Shown: positions 43 to 64,000 of the stretch, one piece after another
How the letters are laid out: every line of letters starts with the position of its first letter
How positions within the stretch are numbered: the stretch's first letter is position 1
Source of the DNA: Brachionus plicatilis
Lineage: Eukaryota > Rotifera > Eurotatoria > Ploima > Brachionidae
Reading direction: 5' to 3'
DNA: 64,000 nucleotides
NCBI GenBank assembly: GCA_010279815.1
Contig: QEOQ01000221.1
Location: 264,973 to 328,972 of the forward strand
Position numbers and translations under genes: made by a program
The notes under the pieces: model-generated
What the model was told of the DNA's origin: nothing
The model's database searches: none
Seen by the model: the letters and a program-made list of their open reading frames with translations, nothing else

Positions 43-296
43 CTACCACAAAGCAGCAGTAGAACCACAGCCCAAGTTCAATGGTGCAGCAGCAGTGTTC
101 CAGTTTCCCCAGGTGATGGTGCTTCAGTTAAAGGAAGAGTATTCCAATTGTTGTAAGCGAGTGGAGCAGCTGCTAATGGAAGAGCGTTCCAATTGTTGGT
201 GGCAAGTGGAGTAGCACTCAAAGGCAGAGTATTCCAATGGTTCCAGGTAAGAGGAGCAGTAGCCAATGGGGCAGTCAATGATAATCCACAAGTCAT
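43..296 (-). pseudogene. Pair 1, A member: frameshifted small W/N-rich repeat protein
   Basis: This is the minus-strand partner of the gene at 710. It starts with the family's MTCGLSLTAPLA and carries four 15-residue units. It resembles the copy at 5345 in reading LATAPLTW and TPLATNNWNA. Around 105-110 it reads ggtgatgg where the other copies have ggtgagtgg, a one-base deletion. The frame therefore leaves the family sequence after TEAP, and translation stops at 78 after 72 residues. Without the deletion it would end at the TAG at 43-45, as the other A members do. It may be a real pseudogene or a single-base assembly error. The window begins inside its 3' flank. Confidence 0.8.
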
Positions 297-709
297 TTTA
301 TAATTTGAATGTGATGGTATTTTATTTAAAAATATTATTTTTACTAAAATTGAATGTTTGATGATTTTTTTAATTTTATTTCCGAATATTTATATTCCCA
401 TGTTTCGATTCAAAAAAAAAAATTTATTTAAATTGATTTTAATAGGCTTTAAGAATTTAAATGAAAAATGTTTATTTCTAATCAAATTCAAAATATTGAT
501 TGTTTAAAATGAAGTATTAGGTGGTATTTGATTGTTTTAAAACCTATTAAATCAAATTAAATTAGGGACATCAAATGATGCATTAAAGTAAACAAAGAAA
601 TTCTAAATGCATATAAATATCGAAAACTATTGAAGAAAAAATCATCAAACATTCAATTTGAGTAAAAATATTATTTTTAAAGAAAATACCATCACAAACA
701 AATTATAAA
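297..709. promoter_or_regulatory. Bidirectional promoter of pair 1
   Basis: This 413 bp lies between two divergent ATGs. Outward TATAAATAT boxes lie at 385-394 (minus) and 612-620 (plus), each starting 98 nt from its ATG. About 29 nt downstream of each TATA both sides have ATCATCAAACATTCAATTT, a likely transcription start region, giving 5' leaders of about 66 nt. The outer ~76 nt on each side are near-perfect inverted copies. The central ~220 bp is not palindromic. In this pair the core with GGGAATATAAATATT (alpha) faces A, and the core with ATGCATATAAATATCGA (beta) faces B. Confidence 0.7.
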
Positions 710-1009
710 ATGACTTGCGGATTATCATTGACTGCCCCATTGGCTGCTGCTCCTCTTACCTGGAACAATTGGAATACCTTGCCTTTGAGTGCTACTCCAC
801 TCGCTTACAACAATTGGAATACTCTTCCATTAGCAGCTGCTCCACTCGCTTACAACAATTGGAATACTCTTCCATTAGCAGCTGCTCCACTCGCTTACAA
901 TAATTTGAACACTCTTCCTTTAACTGAAGCACCACTCACCTGGGGAAACTGGAACACTGCCGCTGCACCATTGAACTTGGGCTGTGGTTCTACTGCTGCT
1001 TTGTGGTGA
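710..1009 (+). CDS. Pair 1, B member: small W/N-rich 15-residue repeat protein (99 aa)
   Basis: I do not recognise this family; it occurs 16 times here. The protein starts MTCGLSLTAPLAA, continues as five units of about 15 residues (pattern A/T-PL-A/T-Y/W-N-N-W/L-NTLPL), and ends in APLNLGCGSTAALW. There are two cysteines, at residue 3 and about 7 from the end. There is no lysine, arginine or aspartate and only one glutamate. The N-terminus has no basic residue, so a standard signal peptide is not evident. No intron is seen. The ATG follows AAATTATAAA, the same start context in all copies. It ends with TGA and a B-type 3' flank (agtctgtcaaata). Unit 1 reads TWNNWNT where most copies have TWNHWNT. 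The composition suggests a structural, self-associating protein such as a cuticle, shell or glue component, but that is inference. Confidence 0.75.
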   Translation: MTCGLSLTAPLAAAPLTWNNWNTLPLSATPLAYNNWNTLPLAAAPLAYNNWNTLPLAAAPLAYNNLNTLPLTEAPLTWGNWNTAAAPLNLGCGSTAALW

Positions 1010-2427
1010 AGTCTGTCAAATATCCTTTTATTTTATATATTTTAGCCTTTATTTAAATAGAATTGTTTTATATTTTTAATTATGAATTTTATTTTCTTAC
1101 CTAATATATAAAATCTTGCAATTTTAATAAATCTTTATAAAATATTTAAATTACTTAAGTAAAAAAAAATTTAAAAATTTCTAGTAAATTTTACTTTTCA
1201 TTTTTAATACATTCTTATTTGACTTCTAAAAAAGTCATGATTTAAAGTTTGAATAGCAAAAAATTTAATCTCAACAAACGAATTTTAATATATTTATTTT
1301 TTAATTATAGAATATAATCTGAATTGCAGAAATAATTAATTTCTTTTAAAAAAAAATCTCGAAAATAATTAATTTCGATGTCTAAATATTTTATTGTTTA
1401 ACCAAACATTTTTTTCCATTAGCTTTTCGACCTTCCTTAGCTTTTGCAGCAATAGGATCCTTATTATATTCTAAAAGCATCTCTTTATATTTTTGATCAA
1501 CAGCTAATGCAATTATGTGAAAACAAATGTACTTTTTTAAAAAATTACTACAAGACTTCTAGTTCTACTTTTGTACAGTTCTTTAAAATTAAAATTTTTA
1601 AGCTTATCATATTTTGCACACAAAAAGTCTTTTTTGCCATAATAAGATAGCTTTTTTCTTTTACACTCTTATTGTAAGTCGACTATCTTCCAGTTTTGAT
1701 GAAAATATTTCATTTTAGTACGAAACTAATTAATTTAGTGCAAAATTAAGTTTTAATTATAATTAGCTAAGAAATTATAAGAAATTTTCTTCCTAAAAAA
1801 ATAATTTTTTTTTAGCACAAGCTAATTTTTTTTGAACAAAAAGTAATTATTTTAGCAATACAGGTAATTACCATCCTTTTGTAATTATATTTAATAGACA
1901 TTACTAATTAATAAAAAATTCTAGTTGTTTCATATTTTATTATCAGAAAGATGCCATCTCGAACATCTTTAGTTCTTTTAGTGCAAAAGTTTATTTCATT
2001 TTTGAAATTCACCGGATTTATGTCCTCATGATTTTTCAATAGGAATCCATTATGTAGAGAAATAAATATTTAAAATAAAAATTAATAAAATTAAAAATCA
2101 TGCTTTGGTTATTTACTGTTTCTTCTTTTTTAAGGAAACGTTTAATAATTTAATAAGTATCATCTTTCATTACTTATATTTTATTTTTTTTATATTTTTT
2201 CATTATTTTATATATGGTTGAGATACGGTTTAATATGTGGTGCTTTCTTTAAATTAGTTTATTTAAATTATTTTTTATCTAGTATTTATATTTTGACAAT
2301 TTTATTTAAACAAAACAACTTTAAAAAAAAAAATTTGATTAATGATTCAAATTATTTTTTTAAATAAGAGTCTAAAACAAACTAGATTTGATTGTAAATT
2401 AAAAAAAAATCAAATAAATGAATTTAT
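1010..2427. other. Noncoding AT-rich DNA between pair 1 and the REXO4-like gene
   Basis: The first ~70 bases are B-type 3' flank. I see no coding signal in the rest. From about 1,880 onward the sequence is the 3' flank of the exonuclease gene and is repeated in inverted form at 59,410-59,945. Confidence 0.5.
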
Positions 2428-3765
2428 TTATTTTTTTAATAAAAATTTATTTCTGTTTAGACGCTTTTTTAGCTTATTTTTAACATATTTTTTATGACTT
2501 TCATTTCCCTTTATTTTCATATCATCCAACTGCGTTCCTAGTTCAATTTTTTGTGTAGCCATCTCTGTTCCTTCTTTTTTGCTGATAATCTTTCCTGATT
2601 TCCTATCTCTCAAAAATTGTTCCCACTCTTTTTTAAAAGTTGTATAAATTCGCATTGCTGCTTGAGCATCCTGTACTGAATTATGCTCTCCATCTTGGAT
2701 TGAAATTCCTAGTAAAGTTTGTGCCAATTTTTTCAGCGACGACAAACTTCCAAGTGTTGGAAATTTTTGCCTAAATAACTTACACTTTTGTGTATCCCTT
2801 AGCTTCTTTTTTGGATGACTCAATAACAAGACTTGCAAATCATTATGAAGAGCGTGACCAACCAGAGTCTTGCCATCTATTAGTTCAGCGACTTCCTTTT
2901 GAATTAGCTTGAAAGAGTGAGCATTGTGTTTTTTTAGATCCTCTGGACGAATTCCACTGACATGAGTTCGGTAATCTGTTACTATTTCTGTTGGTAGAGC
3001 ATATTTATCATAAATTACTTCACCAAATTGATTAATAATACTGACTCTGGCTAAAATTGAATCTTTTCCCGCTTCTCCAACGCCTACCATTTCACAGTCC
3101 ATAGCCACAACTTTGGTGATCTTTGCATCAGTAACAGTTGTAGTATTTTGATTAATTAGCTCATTTTTTTCCGGCAAAAAAACTTTATCAACTTCGAACC
3201 AAATTTTTTGGCTTTCAGTTTGTACTGGTGTTGATTCAGCTAGAGGGGGCAGCCCTTTTTGAGCGCGTCGTTTATCTCGCAGTTGTCTTAGACGTTTTGC
3301 TTGTTTGGCAGTATCTTCTAGGACTTTTTTTAAATTTATCGAATTGCTCTTTTTTAAATCGACAATAACTTTGAAATTTTCTTTTTTGTTCTTTTTGTTA
3401 TGGGACTTTTTTGAGGGTTTTTTTCCAGACTTGGAATGGTCCTTATTTGTAGTTGATTTTTTATTTGATTTCATTTTATAATTTTTTTCACAATAATTTT
3501 TAAAATAAACCATTACTTGTGTACTATATATTTTTTTAAATGTTAAATAGTTTTGATTAAATTTTAATTGAAAAAGTTAGTTAACTTTTTTTTTGTTTGA
3601 AATTTTCTTTGCAAAAGCTTACAAAAATGCTGCTGAGAAAAAAAATTTATTCTTGTTGTCTAAATTTTCAATAATAAGTCCTGCTCAAAATTTGAAAAAA
3701 AAGTAAATTTTTATTTAGATTGCATTATCAATTAATGAAAAATGTTAACTTCTAAAAGAATTTGG
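1880..3765. repeat. Left copy of inverted segmental duplication carrying the REXO4-like gene
   Basis: This segment matches the reverse complement of about 58,068-59,945, covering the gene plus several hundred bases on each side. Landmarks in both are atgccatctcgaac, taaacgtttcc and cagtaatttt-type upstream sequence ending near agaatttggttt / aaataaaattctttt. The ends were judged by eye and could be off by some tens of bases. Confidence 0.75.
2428..3513 (-). CDS. REXO4: REXO4-like 3'-5' RNA exonuclease (copy 1)
   Basis: This is a 361-residue protein of the DEDDh exonuclease superfamily (REXO4/ISG20 type), whose members trim RNA; REXO4/Rex4 is nucleolar and tied to rRNA processing. The N-terminal ~100 residues are lysine-rich and low in complexity, fitting nucleolar targeting. 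The exonuclease domain spans about residues 133-295. Exo I is VVAMDCEMVG (catalytic D and E), Exo II is LVGHALHNDLQVL (D), and Exo III is EHNSVQDAQAAMRIY (H and D). All catalytic residues are present. The C-terminal ~65 residues are basic. No intron is seen. A second in-frame ATG (MKSNKK, residue 14) could be the true start. A second intact copy in inverted orientation at 58,324 differs at four residues by eye, all in the N-terminal part. Confidence 0.88.
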   Translation of the reverse strand: MVYFKNYCEKNYKMKSNKKSTTNKDHSKSGKKPSKKSHNKKNKKENFKVIVDLKKSNSINLKKVLEDTAKQAKRLRQLRDKRRAQKGLPPLAESTPVQTESQKIWFEVDKVFLPEKNELINQNTTTVTDAKITKVVAMDCEMVGVGEAGKDSILARVSIINQFGEVIYDKYALPTEIVTDYRTHVSGIRPEDLKKHNAHSFKLIQKEVAELIDGKTLVGHALHNDLQVLLLSHPKKKLRDTQKCKLFRQKFPTLGSLSSLKKLAQTLLGISIQDGEHNSVQDAQAAMRIYTTFKKEWEQFLRDRKSGKIISKKEGTEMATQKIELGTQLDDMKIKGNESHKKYVKNKLKKRLNRNKFLLKK

Positions 3766-4779
3766 TTTACTTATTATTTCAATTCTTTTAAAAACAAGAC
3801 TTTTTTTTCTAGAGATTTATTTATTTAAATTTAATAAAAAATTTAAAATGGCTTCGAGCTCACTAATTGAGTGTTACCTCTTTCAGTTCGCTCCTTCAGC
3901 CTAAATAAGATAAAATAAATAAAAATTAAATAAAATTATTGTTTTACAATAAACGAAAAAAAAACAGTCAAACTTGTTATAAATTACTCAGGATAAATCA
4001 AATTTTTACGTTTGATTTTACACAAGAACCAAAGATTTTTCAACCTTTGGAAAGAACGTATATTAAAAAAACAAGAGTAAGGTACAATCGAATTAGGACT
4101 ATGCAGACAAAAAATTCCAAATTTATATGCTTAAAGAAAGGCACTTAGGCCTTTTAATTTCTAATTTCCTTGGGAAATTATCTGAAATATGGTAAAGGTA
4201 TTAATGTAAAATGTTTGCAAAAAATCAAAAATTTCGCATAATTTCTCAGGGAAATTAAAAGGTGTTTCATTTAATTGCCTATAGGGCATTAAGTACATAC
4301 GGTAATAACAATATCTTTTATCGAAGAAATATTTTTAAACATCTTATTTAAAAAATTTTCATCGATAAATCAAGTAATTTTCTGAAATTTATTCGTCATT
4401 CTATGAGAAAAATTAATTTAATTATTTTTTTAAGATTAAAAAAAACTATTTATTTATTTAAACTTCTGAGCCTCATAGACTAATGCCCAATAAAAAGATT
4501 TAAATTTTACAAATTGTAAAAAAAAAAAAGAAAAGAAAAAGAATTATTTACCAAGCTAATACCGAGTTCCCTTTAACGAAATTCCGATTTAACGCAATCG
4601 CAGAAATTAACCGAGCAATACCGTACCTTAAATTAAATGACACACATTAATTAACACCTTGTTATTGTTTATCTGAGAATTCTAATTGATAATGTATAAA
4701 TAAGTTGCCCATGGTGTCAATCGATAGCACCTTGACTGCGCGTGGATTAGAGGCAGAAAAACAAAATTTTTAATTTTTT
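3766..4779. other. Noncoding stretch with MITE-like and LINE-tail scraps
   Basis: No convincing gene is present; the 69-codon open frame at 3,939 is AT-rich and looks random. About 4,195-4,310 (tttcgcataatttc, aattaaaaggtgtttcattt, gcattaagtacata) is an inverted relative of 25,392-25,480. At 4,446-4,490 tatttatttatttaaac followed by ctgagcctcatag looks like the reversed 3' tail of a jockey/CR1-like LINE. At 4,560-4,625 a block with taccgag and cgatttaacgc resembles pogo-type ends, but no matching inverted repeat was found. Confidence 0.4.
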
Positions 4780-5644: not shown

Positions 5645-6055
5645 TTTATAATTTGAATGTGATGGTATTTTCTTTAAAAATAATATTTTTACTCAAATTG
5701 AATGTTTGATGATTTTTTCTTCAATAGTTTTCGATATTTATATGCATTTAGAATTTCTTTGTTTACTAAAATGCATCATTTGATGTCCCTAATTTAATTT
5801 GATTTAATATGTTTTAAAACAATCAAATACCACCTAATACTTCATTTTAAACAATCAATATTTTGAATTTGATTAGAAATAAACATTTTTCATTTAAATT
5901 CTAAAACCCTATTAAAATCAATTTAAATAAATTTTTTTTTGAATTGAAACATCGGAATATAAATATTCGGAAATAAAATTAAAAAAATCATCAAACATTT
6001 AATTTGAGTAAAAATAATATTTTTAAAGAAAATACCATCACAAACAAATTATAAA
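5645..6055. promoter_or_regulatory. Bidirectional promoter of pair 2 (flipped spacer)
   Basis: TATAAATAT lies at 5,734-5,742 (minus) and 5,958-5,967 (plus), each 98 nt from its ATG. Here the beta core (ATGCATATAAATATCGA) faces the A gene and the alpha core (GGAATATAAATATTCGG) faces the B gene, the opposite of pair 1. The whole central spacer is inverted relative to the A/B ends. Confidence 0.7.
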
Positions 6056-9341: not shown

Positions 9342-9753
9342 TTTATAATTTGTTTGTGATGGTTTTTTCTTTAAAAATAATATTTTTACTCAATTTGAAT
9401 GTTTGATGATTTTTTCTTTAGTATTTATCAATATTTATATGCATTTGGAATTTCTTTGTTTACAAAAATGCATCATTTGATGTCCCTAATTTAATTTGAT
9501 TTAATAGGTTTTAAAACAATCAAATACCACCTAATACTTCATTTTAAACAATCAATATTTTGAATTTGATTAGAAATAACCATTTTTCATTTAAATTCTT
9601 AAAGCCTATTAAAATCAATTTAAATAATTTTTTTTCTTGAATCGAATCATGAGAATATAAATATTGGGAAATAAAATTAAAAAAATCATCAAACATTTAA
9701 TTTGAGTAAAAATAATATTTTTAAAGAAAATACCATCACAAAAAAATTATAAA
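9342..9753. promoter_or_regulatory. Bidirectional promoter of pair 3
   Basis: TATAAATAT is at 9,431-9,439 (minus) and TATAAATATT at 9,656-9,665 (plus), each 98 nt from its ATG. Beta faces B and alpha faces A, the majority arrangement. Confidence 0.7.
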
Positions 9754-12066: not shown

Positions 12067-13181
12067 AAATTAAAAGTGCTCGGATGAGTGGCGCTGTTTA
12101 TGATGAACGTCCCACGTGCTTCTTAGGGGAAGACGCCGTCATAACTATGCCGTATGCCGGTCCCAAGCCCGGATGAAAAAATAGGAGGGTGACAAAAATT
12201 TTACGTACAAATATTTTTAACTATTTTTATTTAAAAAAAACAGATCCTTGAAAAAAAAACATTGTTTAGGTAAAAAATTGTAATTTTGTTCAAGCTTTAA
12301 CTTTAATTATTTTTCAAGTGTATTGAACTACATTGAGTTCGTTGCCAAATTATAATTGCTCTGATATTTTCTAACCAAATGTCGATTTTAAATTTGTCTT
12401 TAAAGTTTTCAAATAAAGATTTTAGAAGAATCAATGAAAAGCAGGATGAAACAATGACTTATTTTTATCAATTTTAAAAAATAAAGCTTTTATTTAAAAT
12501 ACATTATAAGCCACCATAACTCTGCCGTAAGCCGGTCCCAAGCCCAGGATGAGAAAAGAGGAGGGTGGTGGCAGCCACACTATGTGGTCTTCTACGAGTC
12601 TGAAGAAGAGCTGTATTACGGGTACATAGATCTACGGGTCTTTGTCCTAGTCTTGTCGTATGAGGGTGCCGCTGGCTTGACCATCATCCAGTATAGAATC
12701 TTAGCAGAGCGAGAACTTGTTTTACAGCTGACCCTCTTTGGATAGCCGTAACTTTGGAAGCACTAAAGTTAAGGCATTCTCTCTTTCTAAATTGAGAATG
12801 TCGCTTGGTTTGTGGTTCCAAGCTAGTCTAAATAGTAGCCGAGTTCGCAGCCAAATTAAAAGTGCTCGGATGAGTGGCGCTGTTTATGATGAACGTCCCA
12901 CGTGCTTCTTAGGGGAAGACGCCGTCATAACTATGCCGTATGCCGGTCCCAAGCCCGGATGAAAAAATAGGAGGGTGACAAAAATTTTACGTACAAATAT
13001 TTTTAACTATTTTTATTTAAAAAAAACAGATCCTTGAAAAAAAAACATTGTTTAGGTAAAAAATTGTAATTTTGTTCAAGCTTTAACTTTAATTATTTTT
13101 CAAGTGTATTGAACTACATTGAGTTCGTTGCCAAATTATAATTGCTCTGATATTTTCTGACCAAATGTCGATTTTAAATTT
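12067..13181 (+). mobile_element. GC-rich retroelement-like repeat, direct-repeat / unique / direct-repeat
   Basis: A ~329 bp block at 12,067-12,395 recurs at 12,853-13,181, offset 786 bp, around a unique middle. Three occurrences of GCCGGTCCCAAGCCC lie at 12,156, 12,531 and 12,942, each followed by a GGATGA and GGAGGGTG stretch. CCGG-TCCCAAGC-CCGG can fold as a hairpin. The GC-rich parts stand out sharply from the AT-rich surroundings. A nearly identical inverted copy is at 28,834-29,650. From memory, a motif of this form is seen in RTE-like LINEs and derived short repeats of other animals, but I cannot verify that here. A 74-codon frame (12,738-12,962) is identical in both copies but may be coincidental. 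Confidence 0.55.
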
Positions 13182-14549: not shown

Positions 14550-14956
14550 TTTATAATTTGTTTGTGATGGTATTTTCTTTAAAAATAATATTTTTACTCA
14601 AATTGAATGTTTGATGATTTTTTTTATTTTCTTTTCTCGATATTTATATGCATTTGGAATTTTTTTGTTTACAAAAATGCATTATTTGATGTCCCTAATT
14701 TAATTTGATTTAATATGTTTTAAAACAATCAAATACCACCTAATACTTCATTTTAAACAATCAATATTTTGAATTTGATTAGAAATAAACATTTTTCATT
14801 AAAATTGCCTATTAAAATCAATTTAAATAATTTTTTTTTTTGAATCGAATCATGAGAATATAAATATTGGGAAATAAAATTAAAAAAATCATCAAACATT
14901 CAATTTGAGTAAAAATATTATTTTTAAAGAAAATACCATCACAAACAAATTATAAA
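14550..14956. promoter_or_regulatory. Bidirectional promoter of pair 4
   Basis: Outward TATA boxes are at 14,640-14,648 (minus) and 14,859-14,868 (plus), 98-99 nt from the ATGs. At 407 bp it is the shortest of the eight spacers. Beta faces B and alpha faces A. Confidence 0.7.
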
Positions 14957-18782: not shown

Positions 18783-19194
18783 TTTATAATTTGTATGTGA
18801 TGGTATTTTATTTAAAAATATTATTTTTACTCAAATTGAATGTTTAATGATTTTTTTAAATTTAATTCCCAATATTTATATTCTTATGTTTCGATTCAAA
18901 AAAAAATTTATTTAAATTGATTTTAATAGGCTTTAAGAATTTAAATGAAAAATGTTTATTTCTAATCAAATTCAAAATATTGATTGTTTAAAATGAAGTA
19001 TTAGGTGGTATTTGATTGTTTTAAAACATATTAAATCAAATTAAATTAGGGACATCAAATAATGCATTTTTGTAAACAAAAAAATTCCAAATGCATATAA
19101 ATATCGAGAAAAGAAAATAAAAAAAATCATCAAACATTCAATTTGAGTAAAAATATTATTTTTAAAGAAAATACCATCACAAACAAATTATAAA
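18783..19194. promoter_or_regulatory. Bidirectional promoter of pair 5
   Basis: TATA boxes are at 18,871-18,880 (minus) and 19,096-19,104 (plus). Alpha faces A and beta faces B. The spacer is nearly identical to that of pair 6. Confidence 0.7.
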
Positions 19195-19819: not shown

Positions 19820-21100
19820 TTAATTGAGATCTTTTAGTAATGATTTAATCGGTTTAAATGTAGAGTTGTTGTATGAGTTAACTATTTCTGCAACCTCTTC
19901 ATCATATAAAGTTGAGCGAGTTAGATAGTTTGTTGTTAATTTTTTGAGCCTTTGTTCTACTGTCGACATTTCAGCGATTGCGTGGAGTATATTATTACTT
20001 GTATTTCGATTGACTTTGAAAATAATTTTGAGTGCTTTATTTTGAATAATTTGAAGTTTTTTTCTGATTTTTTCGCGAGTTATATGACATGGTAACATAC
20101 TATATTGAACTATTGATTGTAATGTTAACTTATAGACTGTAATTAGCGTTTTCGATTTGATCCCATAATGTTTTGAGCTTAGGATTTTAAGCAAGTTTAA
20201 TTTATTGCTACATTTGTTGATTGTTTCGGTGAAATGAGTTTCGAAATTAAGACCGGGGTCAAAATTGATACCTAAAATTTTTGCTTGTTTTACTTTTTCA
20301 ATTTTTTTGTTTTTTATTTCTAAGTTTAAGTTCAATGAAAGCTCATACGATGGTCTATTGTAGTTGTTGGCAATTAACATGTATTTTGTTTTGCGAATAT
20401 TGAGTTTCAAACCCCACTTTTCTGAATATTCATTGATTTTGTTGATGGCTTTTTGTAACAATTTGTTTATTTTTTTTAACTTTTAGCACTAAACCAGACT
20501 GTGATGTCATCAGCAAAGAGCGCGAATTTAACTCCGATTTTTTAAGTTCTTTTTCAATGTCGTTTATGAAAATCGCAAATAATAGGGCACTTAGGCAGCC
20601 ACCTTGGGGTATACCTGATTTGATCGGTTTTTTAGTTGAGTCTAACTCGTCATTTATTTGAAAAGTTCTTCCCTCCAGATAAGATCTGATCCATTTTTCG
20701 ATCATTAATGGGCATCTGTGTTTGTGATGTTTTTGTAGTATATTGGCATGTGGAACTGAGTCGAAAGCTTTTTCAAAATCGAATAAAACAAGGCCAGTTT
20801 TGTTTTTGTTTTTTAAATTTCTAATTGTTGGTTCGATTATTTTGAAAAGAACGTTTTGAGTTGATCTATGTCTACGGAAGCCAGATTTTTCGTTAATTAA
20901 TATTTTTCTTTGTTCAGCCCAAGTTGTAAGTCTCTCGTTTAAAATCCTTTCGAGTATTTTGCCAAGACAACTCAACAATGAAATTGGTCTAAAAGATGCT
21001 GGATCATTTGGGTCTTGTGGTTTTTTGTGTATCATTATCACCTTGGCATTCTTCCACAAACTTGGAACGTGTCCTAATGTAATGAAGCGTTAAAGATTTT
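19820..21100 (-). pseudogene. LINE ORF2, reverse-transcriptase part
   Basis: RT motifs are clear: SFRPISLLSCLGKILERIL, then LFDFEKAFDSVPH (motif A), GIPQGGCLSALLFAIFIND (motif B), then a frameshift before LFADDITVWF (motif C, near 20,500). After another shift comes KWGLKLNIRKTKYMLI and KILGINFDPGLNF (thumb side). Frames change near 21,080, 20,515 and 20,465, so no intact enzyme is made. Confidence 0.85.
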
Positions 21101-22455
21101 TAAAATGTTGTTAAGACACGTTTGATTTAAATTCTTAATTGTTTTGGTACTGATTTTGTCGTATCCTGTTGACATTTTTGTTTTTGTTTGATCAATTGAA
21201 CTCATCAACTCGGTCATACAAATTGGTTGATTGTATTTTTTTGACTTGTAGTATTTAAAAAAATTGCTTGAGCTTTTATTTTGTGAGTGTGGATTTGAAA
21301 AGACGTTTTGAAGGTGATCTGCTAGTAATTTTACTTTTTCATTGTTTGTTTTATCAGAATTTGGTAAAAATTTTTTTTCTGTTTCGTTATTTGTATTGAT
21401 TGCTCGCCAAAATTTTCGTTCACTCGGATTTGTGTTTGTTATGCTTTCGAAAATAGAGTTCCATTTTTGGTTATTTAGCGATGTTACTGTTCGTTTGATT
21501 TTGTTATCAAGGTTGTTTGCTAAATTTTTTGTTTGTGTGTTCCGGTTTTCGAGTATTCTCTAAGAAGTTTTTTTTTAAGACAAATAATATATAATAAAGT
21601 ACCTGGTAAATTTATTTTTTGATTTTGGATTGTTTTTTCAGTTGTTGCATTTTCTAGTGATGTTTTGATTGTTTCAGTGAATTCATCGATTTTTTGTTCA
21701 AGTTGTTCGATTGTTTCAATCGGATCAATAATTGGCTCAATATATTTTATACTCTCTTTGAAACATTCCCAATTGATTATTTTAATTTTCGTCCTTGTTA
21801 ATTCGGTTTGAGCTTCGAAGCTAATTGGATAGTGATCTGATGCTGTAAAGTTCGTGTGAACTTTAAAATTATTTATACAATTTGCTAAGTCGTTTGAACA
21901 AAGGGCCAAATCAAGGATGTTTGAGCTTTTACGAAATGTTGGGGTGTCATTATTTACGATGCAAATTTTATTTTGGTTCAATAAATTGTTTAATATATTG
22001 CCTCGTTTATTTGTATTTTTGCAATACCAATCTGAGCTAAGAGAATTAAAATCTCCAGTAATGATTAGCTTTTTCTGGTTTATTATTTTTGATAAAAATT
22101 CAAAATTAGTTTTGCTGTTTGGGTGAACATATATCGATAAAAAAACGATTTTTTGCGATTTGTCTAAAATTTCAATTGCTTTTAGTTCGTATTGTTCATT
22201 TGATAAAAGCGTGAGAATTTTGAATTTCAAATTGCTTTTTATAATTATGGCGACTTCACCACCTTTAGAATGTGTTCGATCGCATCGAATTATTCGGTGA
22301 TTTTTTATGAAGTTGTGATTATTGTGTTTTTTTGATAGATTCGTTTCATTAAAGGAAAGGACGTCGATTCCTTCTTTGTTAATGAAATTGAAAATTTGTG
22401 CAAATTTGTTTGAGAACGAGCGAACATTTAAATGGGCGATTTTTAGCTTATTCAT
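21100..22455 (-). pseudogene. LINE ORF2, endonuclease part and linker
   Basis: The ATG at 22,455 overlaps the ORF1 stop in ATGAATAA, a typical coupled arrangement. The endonuclease has NETNLS, ITGDFNS and TASDHYPI motifs of the exonuclease/endonuclease/phosphatase fold, which nicks target DNA for priming. The frame closes at 21,520, near an A-rich run where one frameshift occurs. The linker continues in another frame (readable as SIFESITNTNPSERKFWRAI) to about 21,085. Confidence 0.85.
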
Positions 22456-24056: not shown

Positions 24057-24468
24057 TTTATAATTTGTATGTGATGGTATTATATTTAAAAATATTATTT
24101 TTACTCAAATTGAATGTTTAATGATTTTTTTAAATTTAATTCCCAATATTTATATTCTTATGTTTCGATTCAAAAAAAAATTTATTTAAATTGATTTTAA
24201 TAGGCTTTAAGAATTTAAATGAAAAATGTTTATTTCTAATCAAATTCAAAATATTGATTGTTTAAAATGAAGTATTAGGTGGTATTTGATTGTTTTAAAA
24301 CATATTAAATCAAATTAAATTAGGGACATCAAATAATGCATTTTTGTAAACAAAAAAATTCCAAATGCATATAAATATCGAGAAAAGAAAATAAAAAAAA
24401 TCATCAAACATTCAATTTGAGTAAAAATATTATTTTTAAAGAAAATACCATCACAAACAAATTATAAA
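24057..24468. promoter_or_regulatory. Bidirectional promoter of pair 6
   Basis: TATA boxes are at 24,145-24,154 (minus) and 24,370-24,378 (plus). Alpha faces A and beta faces B. Confidence 0.7.
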
Positions 24469-25480: not shown

Positions 25481-25508
25481 TGCAAATAAGATACAGGAAG
25501 CTTTTATA

Positions 25509-25613
25509 TATGCGAGTAACGAGCCGTTATTTTATATAAAATGTATGCGAGTAACGAGCCGTTATTTTATATAAAATGTATGCGAGTAACGAGCCGTTAT
25601 TTTATATAAAATG
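25509..25613. repeat. Three tandem 35-bp repeats
   Basis: The unit tatgcgagtaacgagccgtt followed by attttatataaaatg starts at 25,509, 25,544 and 25,579. The copies are identical by eye, suggesting recent expansion. Confidence 0.85.
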
Positions 25614-26620
25614 TGTTGAAACATTGATGGGCTTTGTTCAAAGAGGGTAGAGGAGGTTTTATTTAAATAAATTTATTTTTCAAATTGTAAATGAAATAAG
25701 ATTTTAAAATATCAAATAAAAGTAAAAATAAAATGTCTTAATTGGTACACAAAAGATTTTTCAACTTGTTTTTGATTAAGCATTGAGTTTTAAGGCTAAA
25801 TTAGTATTTTAAAAAATCTATATATATGTTATTAATATTTTTATTAATCATTAATCATTTTAGATAAGTATAAAAAATTACAGAAAATTGTATTTGAAAT
25901 GTAAAATTTTGATTAAATATATATGTTTTGAATAGAAATTACAGGTAGTTACATAGGCTGTTGACATTTGTTAGCTGCCGTTGTTCTTGTTCTTTTTTTT
26001 GGTTTAGAAACGTCAGGGGATTCTTTATTTGATTTTGAAATTGGTGTGGTGTCTATTTCTTTTGATGAATAATGGTTTTATTTGTCGAAGATTAATTAAC
26101 TAATTGTAAATTTCATGGCAGATAAAAAAGTAAAAGAACAATAATTGTATGTTGCTTTCTTATATTCTTATTATTTTAATATTAAAGTGTTAGAATTTAT
26201 TATTAAACAAAACCGATAACCAATAGTTTCGGTGAACTATTCGTCGAATCAGAATGCAGGGTTTCAATTCTTGAATTGAAAAATCGTTCAGTATCCTAGA
26301 TTTTCCAATGTACACATCTGGTTATTAGCTCGTCGCGATGCTCGTTCCTCGCAATAATTACCCTGGGATATTAAATGAAACATGGTAAATTAATAATGCG
26401 ATTTATAAAAGAATTATTATCAAAAACTCTTTTCAACCATTTTGAAACAGTCAATTTTCTTAGTGACTGTTATTTTTTTAAACATATTAATTTCTCTGGT
26501 TCTTATAAAAAAATCTTGATCTTTTTTAAATATCTTTTTGAACTTGAACTCAAAATTAAAATACAGCATAAAAGCATGATGTTTGAAATACATATCATAA
26601 GATTTAAACCATTTATCAAA
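25614..26620. other. Noncoding AT-rich stretch
   Basis: I see no gene. The upstream open frame from 26,375 into the pogo remnant is low complexity and not convincingly coding before 26,621. A short block near 26,350-26,400 (attaaatgaaaca) weakly recalls the 25.4 kb repeat. Confidence 0.35.
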
Positions 26621-28833: not shown

Positions 28834-29650
28834 TTTGTCACCCTCCTATTTTTTCATCCGGGCTTGGGACCGGCATACGGCATAGTTATGACGGCGTCTT
28901 CCCCTAAGAAGCACGTGGGACGTTCATCATAAACAGCGCCACTCATCCGAGCACTTTTAATTTGGCTGCGAACTCGGCTACTATTTAGACTAGCTTGGAA
29001 CCACAAACCAAGCGACATTCTCAATTTAGAAAGAGAGAATGCCTTAACTTTAGTGCTTCCAAAGTTACGGCTATCCAAAGAGGGTCAGCTGTAAAACAAG
29101 TTCTCGCTCTGCTAAGATTCTATACTGGATGATGGTCAAGCCAGCGGCACCCTCATACGACAAGACTAGGACAAAGACCCGTAGATCTATGTACCCGTAA
29201 TACAGCTCTTCTTCAGACTCGTAGAAGACCACATAGTGTGGCTGCCACCACCCTCCTCTTTTCTCATCCTGGGCTTGGGACCGGCTTACGGCAGAGTTAT
29301 GGTGGCTTATAATTCATTTTTAATAAAAGCTTTATTTTTTAAAATTGATTTAAATAAGTCATTGTTTCATCCTTCTTTTAATTGATTCTTCTAAAATCTT
29401 TATTTGAAAACTTTAAAGACAAAGTTAAAATCGAATTTTGGTTAGAAAATATCAGAGCAATTTTAATTCGGCAACGAACTCAATGTAGTTCAAGACACTT
29501 GAAAAATAATTAAAGTTGAAGCTCGAACAAAATTACAATTTTTTACCTAAACAATGTTTTGAGGATCTGTTTTTTTTTTAATAAAAATACTAAAAAATAT
29601 TTGTACGTAAAATTTTTGTCACCCTCCTATTTTTTCATCTGGGCTTGGGA
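28834..29650 (-). mobile_element. Second copy of the GC-rich retroelement-like repeat
   Basis: In reverse complement this matches the 12.1-13.0 kb element almost exactly through the GC-rich parts. It starts and ends at the CCCAAGCCC / GGATGAAAAAATAGGAGGGT motif instead of at the same points as the other copy. Its ends are therefore permuted relative to the first copy, as for a tandemly arranged or circular source. It lies between the inverted repeats of 26.9 and 29.7 kb. Confidence 0.6.
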
Positions 29651-30148: not shown

Positions 30149-33100
30149 TTATCTAAATGATCTTGGAGTATTTGTAAGCGAATTAATGTCGGAAGTCATA
30201 TTTAGAATGTAATTGTTGGCTTCATTTTTCGAAGCTAAGGCGTATTTGTTCACATTTCCAGTGTTGTAGTTTATATCCCAGCAACTGGTATTCATATCGG
30301 TCCAAAGTTTTGTCGCTTTGTCTATATTTTCAACCGAGTTGAAATTTTTTTTCTTGCTCACTAGTAAAACAGGGGGAGAATTTGACTTAACAGGCGGTAG
30401 ATGTGCAGCAGAATTTTTTGAAGATGGAGCCAAATCAAAAATATCAGAGGACAATGCATTTAGTTGGAGTTCTCTTCTCAGTTTATTTTTTTCTTTTATC
30501 AAGGCTTCGAGTCTGTCATTTAAATTTTCTGTCTCATCATTTAGAAGTTTTATTTTACAATTGAGTTGGGCGTTTTGGCGGCGCAGGTCGCGTATTCTTG
30601 AGTCCCGGTCAGCAAGAGATGTCACCAGATTGTTTCTCTCTTCTACTAAAAGTTGGTAAGACGAGTTTTCTTGGTCATTAGTAATTTTAATTTGAGCATT
30701 TGTCAAAAGATCTTTGTATTTGGTCCTTTCTTTTTGGAAATAATCCCACAGTCTTTCGATTTTATTTTTTTGTTTAGTTTTTCTAAGCTCATATTTTTGC
30801 ATTAATAGATCAAATTTTTGGCTATATTCGGAACATTTGACTTCTGAATGTTCCAATTTTTTCCTCATTTCATTCAATTGGTCCTGCAAAGCTGAATTTT
30901 TTTCCAGTTCTGTATGACTTTTGTCTGCAATTAGATCCAATCTGGATTTAACTCCGGTCAGTTGATTTCTATAGTCGACATTTTCATGTTTTAGCTCGGC
31001 ATTCTCGTCCTGGAGCAGGGTTAATTTTTGCTTTATTTTTTTTGCCTCTTCTCTCAACTGTTCTTGTTTTGATTCCAACTTATCGCGACGGGTTTTTTCG
31101 CTGTCCAGCTCGTTTTTAAGGTTTTTTATTTCATCTAATTTTTGGCTATAGCCGGATTTAAAATGAGTCAGTTCGTTTATTACTCCATTGGACTTGATCA
31201 ATTCATGTTTTGTTTCGTTTAGAGTGTTCTTTAAATCGCTGATTTCGATTTCCTGTCTGCTGTTTGTTTCCAAAACTTTTGATAGAGTGTCACGTTCTTC
31301 ATCTAATTCTTTGATTAATTGCTCAAATTTAGACTGCAAACTTTCAAGCTGAAAAAAATTAAAATTTTAAATTTCATTCTGAAACAAGTCTTGGAAATAA
31401 TCAAAAGAAATTAAAAAATTTGAATTGGCAATTCTTGAATAAAATTGTTATTTGAAGATAAAAAAAATAATTTAAAAACATTTGTTTAACGTCAAAAAAG
31501 GGAAGCTTAAATTGTAAGAAGGACACTTAATTTTCTCACAATTTTCTTACAATTTAATATTGTACTTAATTTTTTCATCAGAAAAAAATGATAGTAAAAA
31601 GAATCTGTTGAATTAAAATATTTTGTTTGAATTTGATTTTAAACTTCGAAAAAGACAAGATTATAATATTCTTTTTTAATTTAAAAACCTTTATTTAAAT
31701 AAAAATGTTTTAACAAAATTGAAAAATAAATTAAACAGAATAATTTTATGAATTAAAAAATCTACTAATTAAAAAATAATGAAAAATTGAGATGATATTC
31801 AAACAATTTCATTTAGATAAAGGCCAAAATAAATAAAATAAAGCAAATAAAAGTATATTTGACAGACTTCACCACAAAGCAGCAGTAGAACCACAGCCCA
31901 AGTTCAATGGAGCAGCAGCGGTGTTCCAATTTCCCCAGGTGAGTGGTGCTTCAGTTAAAGGAAGAGTGTTCAAATTATTGTAAGCAAGTGGAGCAGCTGC
32001 TAATGGAAGAGTATTCCAATTATTGTAAGCGAGTGGAGCAGCACTCAAAGGCAAGGTATTCCAATGGTTCCAGGTAAGAGGAGCAGCAGCCAATGGGGCA
32101 GTCAATGATAATCCACAAGTCATTTTATAATTTGTTTGTGATGGTATTTTCTTTAAAAATAATATTTTTACTCAAATTGAATGTTTGATGATTTTTTTTC
32201 TTTTCTTTTCTCGATATTTATATGCATTTGGAATTTTTTTGTTTACAAAAATGCATTATTTGATGTCCCTAATTTAATTTGATTTAATATGTTTTAAAAC
32301 AATCAAATACCACCTAATACTTCATTTTAAACAATCAATATTTTGAATTTGATTAGAAATAAACATTTTTCATTTAAATTCTTAAAGCCTATTAAAATCA
32401 ATTTAAATAAATTTTTTTTTGAATCGAAACATAAGAATATAAATATTGGGAAATAAAATTAAAAAAATCATCAAACATTTAATTTGAGTAAAAATAATAT
32501 TTTTAAATATAATACCATCACATGCAAATTATAAAATGACTTGTGGATTATCATTGACTGCCCCATTGGCTGCTGCTCCTCTTACCTGGAACCATTGGAA
32601 TACCTTGCCTTTGAGTTCTGCTCCACTTGCTTACAACAATTGGAATACTCTACCATTAGCAGCTGCTCCACTTGCTTACAATAGTTTGAACACTCTTCCT
32701 TTAACTGAAGCACCACTCACCTGGGGAAACTGGAACACTGCTGCTGCACCATTGAACTTGGGCTGTGGTTCTACTGCTGCTTTGTGGTAGATTTTTTAAT
32801 TCAGAAAATTATTCTGTTTAATTTATTTTTCAATTTTGTTAAAACATTTTTATTTAAATAAAGGCCTTTTAAATTGAAATACATTTATGTATCTTAATTC
32901 CTTTTTTTTTATAATATTTAGTTTTTACTTTTTTTAAATTTATCTGTTAAATTTTTTTATTTAATTCTTTTCTTAATTTAATTTTTACCTTATACAAAGA
33001 TATTTTTAATTTGTCGCCATAAGGATATTTTGGTATGTTTTTAATTCTTTTTTTTTTTTAAATTATGTTTTAATTTATCTTAGATTTAAACTGGTTGTTA

Positions 33101-45360: not shown

Positions 45361-45382
45361 TATTACCGAAACTCCAACGTCT

Positions 45383-57626: not shown

Positions 57627-58067
57627 ATCTTGAAGTTGATGATCAATTCAAAATATCATTTCAATTCGAAGAGTTTATCTTTAAACATTAAAATTAATCT
57701 TTAAATTTATTTAAATAATTTTAATGCAAAGTGCTTTACATGTTATGTTGATTTAAAAAATAAAATAATTTAAAAAAATATTTTCTCAATCCGTTTATAA
57801 ATTGATTATTAAAATTTAAATTTATAAACATTAAAAATGAAATTCAGATATTAAATTCCAAATAAGTGATTAAATCAAAAGGTCGATCTTTCATACGAAT
57901 ATTTTCGAAATAAAAAATTTTTCCTTTTTTTAAATCTACAAAACATGTAAAGCATGTAACATTAAAATTTTATAAATTAATTCATAAATTGATTTTATAT
58001 AATAAACTAATGATAAACTAATTGAATTGAAATGATATCTTGAATTGGTCATAAAATTCAAGATGCC
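57627..58067. other. Noncoding AT-rich spacer
   Basis: Nothing is recognised before the duplicated REXO4 block begins. The minus-strand frame at 57,936-58,244 overlaps the gene's upstream region and is not supported. Confidence 0.35.
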
Positions 58068-59945
58068 GTAAATAAAATTCTTTTTGAAGTTTACATTTTT
58101 CTTTAATTGATAATGCAATGAAAATAAAAATTTACTTTTTTTCAAATTTTGAGCAGGACTTATTATAGAAAATTTAGACAACAAGAAAAAATTTTTTTTC
58201 TCAGCAACATTTCTGTAAGCTTTTGCAAAGAAAATTTCAAACAAAAAAAAAGTTAACTAACTTTTTCAACTAAAATTTAATCAAAACTATTTAACATTTA
58301 AAAAAATATATAGTACACAAGTAATGGTTTATTTTAAAAATTATTGTGAAAAAAATTATAAAATGAAATCAAATAAAAAATCAACTACAAATAAGGACCA
58401 TTCCAAGTCTGGAAAAAAACTCTCAAATAAGTCCCATAACAAAAAGAACAAAAAAGAAAATTTCAAAGTTATTGTCGATTTAAAAAAGAGCAATTCGACA
58501 AATTTAAAAAAAGTCCTAGAAGATACTGCCAAACAAGCAAAACGTCTTAGACAACTGCGAGATAAACGACGCGCTCAAAAAGGGCTGCCCCCTCTAGCTG
58601 AATCAACACCAGTACAAACTGAAAACCAAAAAATTTGGTTCGAAGTTGATAAAGTTTTTTTGCCGGAAAAAAATGAGCTAATCAATCAAAATACTACAAC
58701 TGTTACTGATGCAAAGATCACCAAAGTTGTGGCTATGGACTGTGAAATGGTAGGCGTTGGAGAAGCGGGAAAAGATTCAATTTTAGCCAGAGTCAGTATT
58801 ATTAATCAATTTGGTGAAGTAATTTATGATAAATATGCTCTACCAACAGAAATAGTAACAGATTACCGAACTCATGTCAGTGGAATTCGTCCAGAGGATC
58901 TGAAAAAACACAATGCTCACTCTTTCAAGCTAATTCAAAAGGAAGTCGCTGAACTAATAGATGGCAAGACTCTGGTTGGTCACGCTCTTCATAATGATTT
59001 GCAAGTCTTGTTATTAAGTCATCCAAAAAAGAAGCTAAGGGATACACAAAAGTGTAAGTTGTTTAGGCAAAAATTTCCAACACTTGGAAGTTTGTCATCG
59101 CTGAAAAAATTGGCACAAACTTTACTAGGAATTTCAATCCAAGATGGAGAGCATAATTCAGTACAGGATGCTCAAGCAGCAATGCGAATTTATACAACTT
59201 TTAAAAAAGAGTGGGAACAATTTTTGAGAGATAGAAAATCAGGAAAGATTATCAGCAAAAAAGAAGGAACAGAGATGGCTACACAAAAAATTGAACTAGG
59301 AACGCAGTTGGATGATATGAAAATAAAGGGAAATGAAAGTCATAAAAAATATGTTAAAAATAAGCTAAAAAAGCGTCTAAACAGAAATAAATTTTTATTA
59401 AAAAAATAAATAAATTCCTTGATTTTTTTCTTTTTAATTTACAATGAAATCTGGCTTGATTTAGTCTCTAAATAAAAAAATAATGATTTCAATCATTAAT
59501 CAACTTTTTTTTAAAAGAGGGCAGTTAAAATAAAATTGAATTAGCGAATGTCAAAATAATAATTAAAATAAACTAATTTAAAGAAAGCACCACATATGAA
59601 ACCGTATCTCAACCATATATAAAATAATGAAAAAATATAATAAAATAAAATATAAGTAATGAAAGATGATACTTATTAAATTATTAAACGTTTCCTGTAA
59701 AAAAGAAGAAACAGTTAATAACCAAAGCATAATTTTTAATTATATTAATTTTTATTTTAAATATTTATTTCTCTACATAATGGATTTCTATTGAAAAAAT
59801 CACGAGGACATAAATCTGGTGAATTTCAAAAATGAAATAAACTTTTGCACTTAAAGAGCTAAAAGTGTTCGAGATGGCATCTTTCTTATATTAAACAGTA
59901 AAACAACTAGAATTTTTATTAGTAAGTAATGAATATTAAATATAA
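58068..59945. repeat. Right copy of inverted duplication carrying the REXO4-like gene
   Basis: This is the reverse complement of about 1,880-3,765. Similarity extends ~250 bp upstream of the ATG and ~535 bp beyond the stop, with small indels only in the noncoding parts. Confidence 0.75.
58324..59409 (+). CDS. REXO4: REXO4-like 3'-5' RNA exonuclease (copy 2)
   Basis: This has 361 residues, the same length as the copy at 2,428-3,513. It keeps AMDCEMVG, GHALHNDLQ and EHNSVQDAQ. Differences seen by eye are confined to the N-terminal part: KLSNKSH for KPSKKSH, NSTNL for NSINL, and TENQK for TESQK. The exonuclease domain and C-terminus are the same. Both copies being intact argues for recent duplication, gene conversion, or selection to keep both. 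Confidence 0.88.
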   Translation: MVYFKNYCEKNYKMKSNKKSTTNKDHSKSGKKLSNKSHNKKNKKENFKVIVDLKKSNSTNLKKVLEDTAKQAKRLRQLRDKRRAQKGLPPLAESTPVQTENQKIWFEVDKVFLPEKNELINQNTTTVTDAKITKVVAMDCEMVGVGEAGKDSILARVSIINQFGEVIYDKYALPTEIVTDYRTHVSGIRPEDLKKHNAHSFKLIQKEVAELIDGKTLVGHALHNDLQVLLLSHPKKKLRDTQKCKLFRQKFPTLGSLSSLKKLAQTLLGISIQDGEHNSVQDAQAAMRIYTTFKKEWEQFLRDRKSGKIISKKEGTEMATQKIELGTQLDDMKIKGNESHKKYVKNKLKKRLNRNKFLLKK

Positions 59946-60667
59946 TTAAAAAATAAATACATTTAAATTCGTTTCATAAGAGCAAATTTCTTACTATTCA
60001 AACTTTTGAGCATCAGTTATTAAAAAGTAAATAAAGCTAGTTATTAGATCATTTTTTTAAATAAAAAAGTTGTTTGAAAATATAGAACTTTTAAGTTCAA
60101 TAAGAAAATATTAATTTTATAAAAATTTGTGAAATAAAATTTACAAAAAATATTTAAATTTTGTTTGAAATATTTTAGTCTCGTGCTTGTTGCCTACTAC
60201 CCTTCACTTGCGTAAAGTATCAGTGAAATATAAACATTATTTGACTATTTGTGAGGGTGGTTGTGATTTAAACCACTACACTTTATTTCTTAGTTGGGCT
60301 CTCAAAGCAGACTTCGATTGAAGATATTCAAAACCCGACTCCATAATTATGTAATTGCTGCCTTTCTTTCATTAACTGATCATGTTGCACATTAAGCATG
60401 TTGTACCTGTCATTAATTTTTCAATTTGTTTATTTTAAATTAATTTTTTATTTTGTTCAACTTATTTTAACTTTAAATTATTTTACTTTAAAATTTTATT
60501 TCATTTGATTATAATTAAATGAATTTTATTATTAAATCACTAAATCTATTATGTTTTGATTGTCATATAAGATAATAAAATGAAAAATTGAGATGATTTT
60601 CAAACAATTTTATTTAAATAAAGGCCAAAATAAATAAAATAAAGCAAATAAAAGTATATGACAGACT
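59946..60667 (-). repeat. Noncoding DNA, then extended B-type flank of pair 8
   Basis: From about 60,190 to 60,667 the sequence is the reverse complement of the B flank of pair 2 (6,311-6,780), with several substitutions. The region before it is AT-rich and unassigned. Confidence 0.55.
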
Positions 60668-60967
60668 TCACCACAAAGCAGCAGTAGAACCACAGCCCAA
60701 GTTCAATGGTGCAGCAGCAGTGTTCCAGTTTCCCCAGGTGAGTGGTGCTTCAGTTAAAGGAAGAGTGTTCAAATTATTGTATGCGAGAGGAGTAGCTGCT
60801 AATGGAAGAGTATTCCAATTGTTGTAAGCAAGTGGAGCAGCACTCAAAGGCAGAGTGTTCCAATTGTTGTAGGCAAGTGGAGTAGAACTCAAAGGCAAGG
60901 TATTCCAATGGTTCCAGGTAAGAGGAGCAGCAGCCAATGGGGCAGTCAATGATAATCCACAAGTCAT
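60668..60967 (-). CDS. Pair 8, B member: small W/N-rich repeat protein (99 aa)
   Basis: This has five units and a TGA stop. The frame is open to an earlier ATG at 61,006, which would add 13 residues (MFLKKIPSHTNYK). I prefer the start at 60,967 because every other copy begins MTCGLS with the same AAATTATAAA leader. Units 1-3 read LSSTPLAY, LSAAPLAY and LAATPLAY. Confidence 0.75.
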   Translation of the reverse strand: MTCGLSLTAPLAAAPLTWNHWNTLPLSSTPLAYNNWNTLPLSAAPLAYNNWNTLPLAATPLAYNNLNTLPLTEAPLTWGNWNTAAAPLNLGCGSTAALW

Positions 60968-61378
60968 TTTATAATTTGTATGTGATGGTATTTTCTTTAA
61001 AAACAATATTTTTACTCAAATTGAATGTTTGATGATTTTTTTAATTTTATTTCCCAATATTTATATTCCAAAGATTCGATCAAAAAAAAAATTAATTTAA
61101 ATTGACTTTAAAAGGCTTTTACAAATTAAAAAAAAATAAAGTATTCCTAATTAAATTCAAAATATTGTTTGTATAAAATGAAGTATTAGGCTGTATTTGA
61201 TTGTTTAAAAACCCATTAAATCAAATTAAATTATGGGCATCAAATGATGAATTTTAGTAAACAAAGAAATTCCAAATGCATATAAATATTGATAGCTACT
61301 GAAGAAAAAATCATCAAACATTCAAATTGAATATAAATATTATTTTTAAAGAAAATACCATCACAAACAAATTATAAA
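60968..61378. promoter_or_regulatory. Bidirectional promoter of pair 8 (flipped spacer)
   Basis: TATA boxes are at 61,056-61,065 (minus) and 61,281-61,290 (plus), 98 nt from the ATGs. Alpha faces B and beta faces A, as in pair 2 and opposite to the other six pairs. The centre has diverged more than in the other copies. Confidence 0.7.
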
Positions 61379-61633
61379 ATGACTTGTGGATTATCATTGA
61401 CTGCCCCATTGGCTGCTGCTCCTCTTACCTGGAACCATTGGAATACCTTGCCTTTGAGTGCTGCTCCACTCGCTTACAACAATTGGAATACTTTTCCATT
61501 AGCAGCTGCTCCACTTGCTTACAATAATTTGAACACTCTTCCTTTAACTGAAGCACCACTCACCTGGGGAAACTGGAACACTGCTGCTGCACCATTGAAC
61601 TTGGGCTGTGGTTCTTCTGCTGCTTTGTGGTAG
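61379..61633 (+). CDS. Pair 8, A member: small W/N-rich repeat protein (84 aa)
   Basis: This has four units and a TAG stop. It reads NTFPL in unit 2 and GCGSSAALW at the end. It is one unit shorter than its partner, like the B member of pair 2, so in pairs 2 and 8 the short member is the one on the plus strand but not the same A/B type. Confidence 0.75.
   Translation: MTCGLSLTAPLAAAPLTWNHWNTLPLSAAPLAYNNWNTFPLAAAPLAYNNLNTLPLTEAPLTWGNWNTAAAPLNLGCGSSAALW

Positions 61634-62926: not shown

Positions 62927-64000
<1,074 letters not shown>

Follow-up and report, generated by a model that had tools for sequence, protein, structure and literature searches.

Inverted mini-gene pairs of Brachionus plicatilis that appear to recombine between arms and may encode an abundant intracellular structural protein

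We describe in the rotifer Brachionus plicatilis a family of mini-genes whose copies stand in head-to-head pairs, appear to exchange sequence between the inverted arms of those pairs, and may encode an abundant intracellular structural protein. For these three statements taken jointly we estimate a probability of about 0.45. That the copies form a gene family with recombination from arm to arm is held with high confidence; for an abundant structural protein of the cell interior, the chances seem to us about even.

Results

The window, by which we mean the whole 64,000-nucleotide stretch analysed, holds 16 mini-gene copies between positions 43 and 61633, arranged as eight head-to-head pairs, the whole genome having been searched (Table 1). 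This is the arrangement given in the first-pass annotation, including the lengths of 84 or 99 residues and the single broken copy, and it is confirmed here: the frame runs uninterrupted from ATG to stop in 15 of the 16 copies, of which ten are 84 aa long and five 99 aa, whereas the left copy of pair 1 carries a one-base frameshift close to its 3' end. The two lengths differ by one in-frame repeat unit of 45 bp (15 aa). The divergent genes are paralogues in all eight pairs, with ATG-to-ATG spacers of 407-413 bp. Since 1267 bp of pairs 5 and 6 agree at 99%, and pairs 3 and 4 have 1995 bp in common at 92%, whole units were copied, and duplicated units occur in both orientations. Remains of retroelements lie in the region of the array. 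A REX4-like ORF was also noted, whose identity reaches 84% over 91% for a protein of B. plicatilis and 68% over 87% for one of B. calyciflorus.

Table 1. Mini-gene copies and predicted promoters in the window
Feature	Positions	Strand
Pair 1 left copy, frameshifted; original-frame stop at 43-45	43..296	-
Pair 1 bidirectional promoter; left spacer half B, right half A	297..709	.
Pair 1 right copy, 99 aa	710..1009	+
Pair 2 left copy, 99 aa	5345..5644	-
Pair 2 bidirectional promoter, flipped vs 3' flanks	5645..6055	.
Pair 2 right copy, 84 aa	6056..6310	+
Pair 3 left copy, 99 aa	9042..9341	-
Pair 3 bidirectional promoter	9342..9753	.
Pair 3 right copy, 99 aa	9754..10053	+
Pair 4 left copy, 84 aa	14295..14549	-
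Pair 4 bidirectional promoter	14550..14956	.
Pair 4 right copy, 84 aa	14957..15211	+
Pair 5 left copy, 84 aa	18528..18782	-
Pair 5 bidirectional promoter	18783..19194	.
Pair 5 right copy, 84 aa	19195..19449	+
Pair 6 left copy, 84 aa	23802..24056	-
Pair 6 bidirectional promoter	24057..24468	.
Pair 6 right copy, 84 aa	24469..24723	+
Pair 7 left copy, 84 aa	31869..32123	-
Pair 7 bidirectional promoter	32124..32535	.
Pair 7 right copy, 84 aa	32536..32790	+
Pair 8 left copy, 99 aa	60668..60967	-
Pair 8 bidirectional promoter, flipped vs 3' flanks	60968..61378	.
Pair 8 right copy, 84 aa	61379..61633	+

Every arm has its own outward-pointing TATA box, TATAAATAT, at -98 or -99 (16 of 16), as well as ATCATYAAACATT at -69 (again 16 of 16). 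On the two strands of the window TATAAATAT occurs 21 times, and 17 of these occurrences lie within 200 bp upstream of mini-genes. We predict that each spacer is a bidirectional promoter with a TATA box on each side, from which two copies diverge; the shared two-way promoters suggested previously gain support from the fixed distance of the TATA box. The presumed leader would start about 70 bases before the ATG and is free of any other ATG in 15 of the 16 arms, and since a single open frame runs from its first ATG, no intron would be needed. AATAAA follows the stop by 54-68 bases in 14 of the 16 arms. These signals bear on a different reading of the pairs, namely that they are a source of RNA whose read-through hairpins feed small-RNA silencing, the open frame being secondary. 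Inverted arms about 97% alike in coding sequence would suit such a role, but transcripts driven by an outward TATA box on each arm, and ended in most arms by a poly(A) signal, would not overlap, and selection acts on the amino-acid sequence, as set out below; we consider an RNA source very improbable.

By several measures the mini-gene protein is under purifying selection. In the 105 comparisons among the 15 intact copies, pooled pN is 0.019 and pooled pS 0.076 (pN/pS 0.25), and omega is 0.39 between the window copies and a diverged paralogue on another contig (C41). Silent changes make up 18 of 33 derived alleles, against 9.6 expected (P 0.00125), and no derived allele is a stop, an outcome with a chance probability of 18%. 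Chance open frames are ruled out by this excess of silent change, and the copies behave as protein genes. The first-pass annotation had allowed for selection on the frames and had named beforehand a dN/dS near 1 as the value that would count against it; the pooled ratio speaks for selection.

The coding sequences of the two arms have been homogenised across sharply different surroundings. Arms fall into classes by promoter half, 3' flank and stop codon: spacer halves match at merely 54-64 of 100 bases, and the stop is TGA on flank X and TAG on flank Y, in eight of eight cases each. Across 252 coding columns in 15 copies, however, there is no fixed difference between arm classes, and coding distances are only marginally lower within classes than between them, at 0.0283 and 0.0324 when classes are defined by spacer half, or 0.0294 and 0.0314 by flank. 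The two copies of a pair differ by 0.030, little less than the 0.033 for copies on opposite arms of separate pairs, so that exchange would be array-wide and not tight within pairs. Additionally, two of the eight pairs (pairs 2 and 8) have the shared promoter in reverse orientation with respect to the outer flanks. The left copies of pairs 1 and 2 are alike in 3' flank and coding sequence except for one lost base, one substitution and one repeat unit, and yet they continue into opposite spacer halves, with the switch lying inside the leader. Such promoter reversal is what a crossover between inverted arms would produce. What is new here, as comparison of the copies indicates, is that the arms exchange sequence and that the coding region is homogenised across them; the homogenisation proposed in the earlier annotation is thus borne out by the lack of fixed differences, the promoter flips and the leader switch.

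The likeness of the arms might instead be due to recent duplication of whole pairs, without any exchange between arms. The long identities shared by pairs 5 and 6 and by pairs 3 and 4 fit such copying, but duplication by itself does not account for flanking features that differ between arm classes around a coding region that does not, nor for the flipped promoters. Evidence against it also comes from other loci. The two arms of the C49 pair are identical in coding sequence, including about 50 silent sites, and distant in sequence from the other loci, with a dS of 0.61 to the window copies. Near the promoter, an arm as a rule resembles its partner at the same locus more than it resembles arms at other loci; there is a single tie (C41 left against C41 right, 90%; C41 left against C49 left, 90%). 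Arms have thus been homogenised despite a pairing that, judged from three loci, would be old, and we regard duplication alone as improbable.

Outside the window, the genome contains at least eight more copies or remains of the family, one of them intact; seven of eight are broken. The left copy of the C41 pair is intact (97 aa, dS 0.77), and a TATA box is present on this arm and lost from the dead one. Both frames of the C49 pair are open although they lack the ATG and the second Cys, so an open frame is not by itself proof of function. A genome search with the C41 protein as query added no reliable member; its C16 match, at E 0.32, is left out of the count. Matches in the 102.9-Mb genome are confined to four contigs, nearly all copies being clustered on one (C65), which disfavours a transposable element. 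Pairs that were mobile units, with a captured small ORF or one of their own, would suit the duplication of units both ways and the retroelement remains nearby, but so narrow a distribution does not, and none of 17 pattern matches in viral contigs or 12 in prokaryote contigs was confirmed as a relative; this origin seems to us hardly credible.

Among about 5.8 billion predicted proteins, the only relatives were three hypothetical proteins of B. plicatilis, one of which is a fragment (P0003) and the sole addition from a profile search for a wider family. The frame is conserved beyond the array in the diverged C41 left copy and in P0001 and P0002 of B. plicatilis. Two members scanned against Pfam matched no family at E 0.1, and one member searched against solved structures had no match at E 10. 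The three B. plicatilis locus tags are not mentioned in the main texts of the literature searched. The view that this is no known family stands as far as these searches extend, and within the same limits the family appears to occur in Brachionus only.

Discussion

The arrangement has parallels in other animals. According to PMC1803023, the Caenorhabditis genes F44E5.4 and F44E5.5, like the hsp-16 locus, are head-to-head homologues, there with a spacer of 446 bp; arms of such pairs are closer to each other than to the same genes elsewhere, and gene conversion was proposed to maintain them. The Brachionus pairs resemble these in joining divergent homologues across a short spacer (407-413 bp), but they encode an unrelated protein, stand eight to an array and show promoter flips. 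The parallel suggested heat-shock regulation, an idea we rejected: the three-part heat-shock element is absent from all eight Brachionus spacers, with one two-part match in pair 3. In human Y-chromosome palindromes such as P6, conversion homogenises inverted arms and crossover inversions are rarer, as related in PMC3723533. Against the roughly 100 kb arms given there, Brachionus arms measure about a kilobase or less, and several small palindromes share one array.

Within Brachionus, the mate-recognition (MMR) family combines tandem repeats, copy-number variation and concerted evolution, and its repeat unit of 261 or 276 bp comes with a signal peptide (PMC3495898). By this description the repeat unit of 45 bp sets the mini-genes apart; in the one copy profiled for hydropathy, no signal peptide is evident.

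Short clustered genes with abundant products are familiar from histones, which include divergent pairs, and from the keratin-associated and corneous beta-protein clusters of vertebrates, in which Cys mediates cross-linking. The mini-genes have no sequence relation that we found to any of these, and their product has just two Cys per chain.

The protein is unusual in composition. It is built of 15-residue repeats with 7.1% Trp; Lys and Arg are absent from all 15 intact copies, and in 15 of 15 the sole Cys residues are the third from the N-terminus and the eighth from the C-terminus. Codon scores of the copies, which are not independent of one another, range from 0.053 to 0.126, compared with 0.025 to 0.084 among five actins; 14 other gene pieces span -0.114 to 0.008. 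An EF1A-like piece, chosen to represent high expression, came out at -0.016. Scores that equal or exceed those of the actins weakly suggest large output. The product in large amounts envisaged by the first-pass annotation is to this extent in keeping with the data; its secreted uses, in eggshell or adhesive, are not supported, since no signal peptide is evident from the first ATG (hydropathy of one copy, and no Lys or Arg in 15).

A secreted structural or adhesive protein, belonging to the egg shell, the resting-egg shell or the glue of the foot gland, nevertheless deserves consideration, and a repetitive, Trp-rich and charge-poor composition in many copies would suit it too. It would require unconventional export or a signal from an upstream exon. 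Against secretion stand the presumed leader, which would start close to the ATG and contains no further ATG in nearly every arm, and an N-terminus that lacks basic residues and whose 19-residue hydropathy, in the copy profiled, peaks at 0.84. We judge secretion possible but doubtful.

For an abundant intracellular structural protein, we envisage that high output is reached through the number of copies, promoters working in two directions and a codon choice like that of actin, and that a nearly charge-free protein rich in Trp, Asn, Pro and Leu would remain inside the cell, where its repeats would pack and the single Cys near each terminus would link chain ends into an insoluble material. Its most likely site may be the intracytoplasmic lamina, a skeletal layer that rotifers have within the epidermis; PMC13403294 describes such a layer for another monogonont, and a literature search for lorica or lamina proteins yielded male anatomy only. 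Placing the product there is a tentative step, taken from composition and the lack of an evident signal peptide. Equally tentative is the fuller proposal that the bulk of the lamina is a material protein of a class new in rotifers, with charge-poor, Cys-capped repeats, and that its genes form an array of miniature palindromes where exchange between arms would repair the copies and flip their shared promoter.

If these ideas are correct, the mini-genes would point to one definite candidate among rotifer material proteins that is invisible to proteomics based on trypsin: a chain without Lys or Arg yields no tryptic peptides from its interior and could therefore escape ordinary proteomics. The locus may also illustrate, on a small scale, how palindromes the size of a gene maintain likeness among many copies through recombination between arms, with promoter flips as its visible trace. 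Since breakage is the rule among copies beyond the cluster, the family can be used to test whether clustering in palindromes protects gene copies.

Results

The first-pass annotation had described eight divergent pairs of mini-gene copies, all intact but one, and both statements were borne out: the pairs lie between window positions 43 and 61633, where it had placed them, and 15 of the 16 copies are open (ten of 84 residues and five of 99, the difference being one in-frame 15-residue unit), with a one-base frameshift close to the end of p1L, the left copy of pair 1. The window belongs to contig C65 (526,881 bases), and across the genome searched (102.9 Mb, 173 contigs) we found at least eight more copies or remnants: C65 itself carries three, all upstream of the window, contigs C41 and C49 carry two each, and C40 carries one. 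The sole intact copy among these is the left one on C41 (C41L, 97 aa), the other seven of the eight being broken. Head-to-head pairing recurs at C41 and at C49, and whole units have been duplicated too, with both orientations represented. Upstream of the window on C65, a palindrome (stretch L009, 6549-10000), whose arms are 99.2% alike over the stretch examined and nearly without a spacer, contains two truncated mini-gene copies.

Paired TATA promoters and selection on the protein indicate that the mini-gene copies are real genes. Over the 105 comparisons among the 15 intact window copies, pooled pS is 0.076 and pN 0.019 (ratio 0.25), and window copies differ from C41L with a dS of 0.77 and a dN of 0.30. 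Across 252 shared columns, 18 of 33 derived alleles are silent, compared with a mean of 9.6 when the same base changes are placed randomly (P = 0.00125); none is a stop, an outcome that chance by itself yields in 18% of cases. Every arm carries the TATA motif TATAAATAT at -98 or -99 and ATCATYAAACATT at -69, the position at which transcription start would be expected. Both strands of the window together contain 21 instances of the TATA motif, of which 17 lie at most 200 bp upstream of mini-genes. In 15 of 16 arms the 75 bases preceding the start codon are free of any further ATG, and AATAAA lies 54-68 bases past the stop in 14 of 16, being absent from p1R and p7L. The C41 pair has kept its TATA box in the intact arm and lost it from the dead one. 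Against certainty, however, count the high proportion of broken copies outside the window and the C49 pair (stretch L016, 3573-4285), whose frames are open and identical in both arms although ATT replaces ATG, and Tyr the second Cys, in each. A DM-domain-like ORF, recognised by eye, lies near this pair.

Codon choice is weakly consistent with high expression. On a log-odds score derived from five actins and one EF1A-like piece (each left out in turn) versus 13 other gene pieces, with the families of the control genes labelled from Pfam hits and our own reading, the 15 copies score 0.053-0.126 and C41L 0.035; the actins score 0.025-0.084, the EF1A-like piece -0.016, and 14 other pieces -0.114 to 0.008.

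The arrangement of the pairs further indicates exchange of sequence between arms. The two halves of the spacer, A and B, are unlike: out of 100 bases, 54-64 match when an A half is compared with a B half, and 80-100 when two halves of one class are compared. The 3' flanks are of two unlike types, X with stop TGA (8/8) and Y with stop TAG (8/8). Grouped by either spacer half or flank, the 15 copies have no fixed coding difference in 252 columns, and mean coding distances are slightly smaller within than between classes (0.0283 and 0.0324 by spacer half, 0.0294 and 0.0314 by flank). Opposite arms taken from different pairs are hardly more distant (0.033) than the two copies of one pair (0.030, seven pairs), so exchange is array-wide rather than restricted to the pair. 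Six pairs combine A-X with B-Y, and pairs 2 and 8 combine A-Y with B-X, so that their promoter is inverted relative to its surroundings. Copies p1L and p2L agree from the 3' flank via the coding region as far as the leader, where they continue into opposite spacer halves; up to that point they differ only by one lost base, one substitution and one repeat unit. Such flips and switches are what crossing over between inverted arms would produce, and copying in of a spacer could also produce them by a less simple route. The C49 arms do not differ from each other at any of about 50 silent and 148 replacement sites, while their dS to the window copies is 0.61.

Over the 15 intact copies, the protein is rich in Leu (20.1%), Ala (19.6%), Asn (13.5%), Thr (11.8%), Pro (10.6%) and Trp (7.1%). 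The 15 intact copies contain neither Lys nor Arg and one acidic residue each (two in p2R), and all have exactly two Cys, one as the third residue and one as the eighth from the end. Conservation of the N- and C-terminal stretches extends to the C41 and B. plicatilis proteins. The highest 19-residue hydropathy mean, 0.84 in the one copy profiled, suggests neither a signal peptide nor a membrane span. As first annotated, the family is unrecognized: our searches returned no name, with no match to Pfam families (two members scanned) or solved structures (one member searched). A search of about 5.8 billion predicted proteins yielded no relatives other than three hypothetical proteins of B. plicatilis: P0001 (69 aa), P0002 (68 aa) and a fragment, P0003, matched only at its start. 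Their three locus tags appear nowhere in the literature searched. Together with the identities of a REX4-like ORF of the window (table), these matches place the host in Brachionus, probably as a sibling of B. plicatilis. The Brachionus mate-recognition (MMR) family was rejected as an identity on repeat length (PMC3495898).

Other window features are tabulated below. Both RAGATH-11 matches sit in repeated elements; genome-wide, all 47 scored candidates (from 2672 first-look candidates) exceeded the cut-off, partly in tandem on contig C5 at a spacing of 621-622 bp, and none occurred in 14 control genomes. This rotifer seems to carry RAGATH-11 as an abundant repeat RNA.

Further features of the window
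Feature	Position	Strand	Details
RAGATH-11 (Rfam)	12784-12906	+	101.3 bits, cut-off 79.4
RAGATH-11 (Rfam)	28910-29032	-	identical match, same score
Inverted duplication	1877-3770 and 58068-59953		95% alike, 1898 aligned columns; adjoins pairs 1 and 8; intact 361-aa REX4-like exonuclease ORF in each copy; one REX4-like ORF of the window has protein matches at 84% identity in B. plicatilis and 68% in B. calyciflorus
Non-LTR retroelement remains	20430-22455	-	located between pairs 5 and 6; ORFs for reverse transcriptase and for endonuclease occupy different frames
35-bp tandem repeat	25509-25614		three perfect copies
Intact 354-aa ORF	62927-63991	-	three RRM matches, U2AF65-like by eye; its bin has 43% G+C, the window maximum (remaining bins 20-35%)
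14-base perfect palindrome TTTATTTAAATAAA	15270-15283		overlaps presumed poly(A) signal AATAAA; matching site in other 3' flanks

Discussion

The organization of the mini-gene pairs is a variant of a kind already known from two systems: the inverted-repeat gene pairs of Caenorhabditis, with maintained arms (PMC1803023), and the palindrome arms of the human Y chromosome, with conversion and rare inversions (PMC3723533). We propose that the genes may provide a large output of an intracellular material, in which charge-poor repeats would pack and disulfide bonds would join the ends of chains. In rotifers a skeletal layer, the intracytoplasmic lamina, lies within the epidermal cytoplasm, as described for a monogonont (PMC13403294), and because this lamina lies inside the cytoplasm, a body-wall protein there requires no signal peptide. 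Tentatively, and with a probability of roughly one in five, the mini-gene protein could be placed in this lamina. Beyond the first-pass annotation, our analysis adds arm-to-arm recombination with promoter flips and a two-cysteine, charge-poor protein design.
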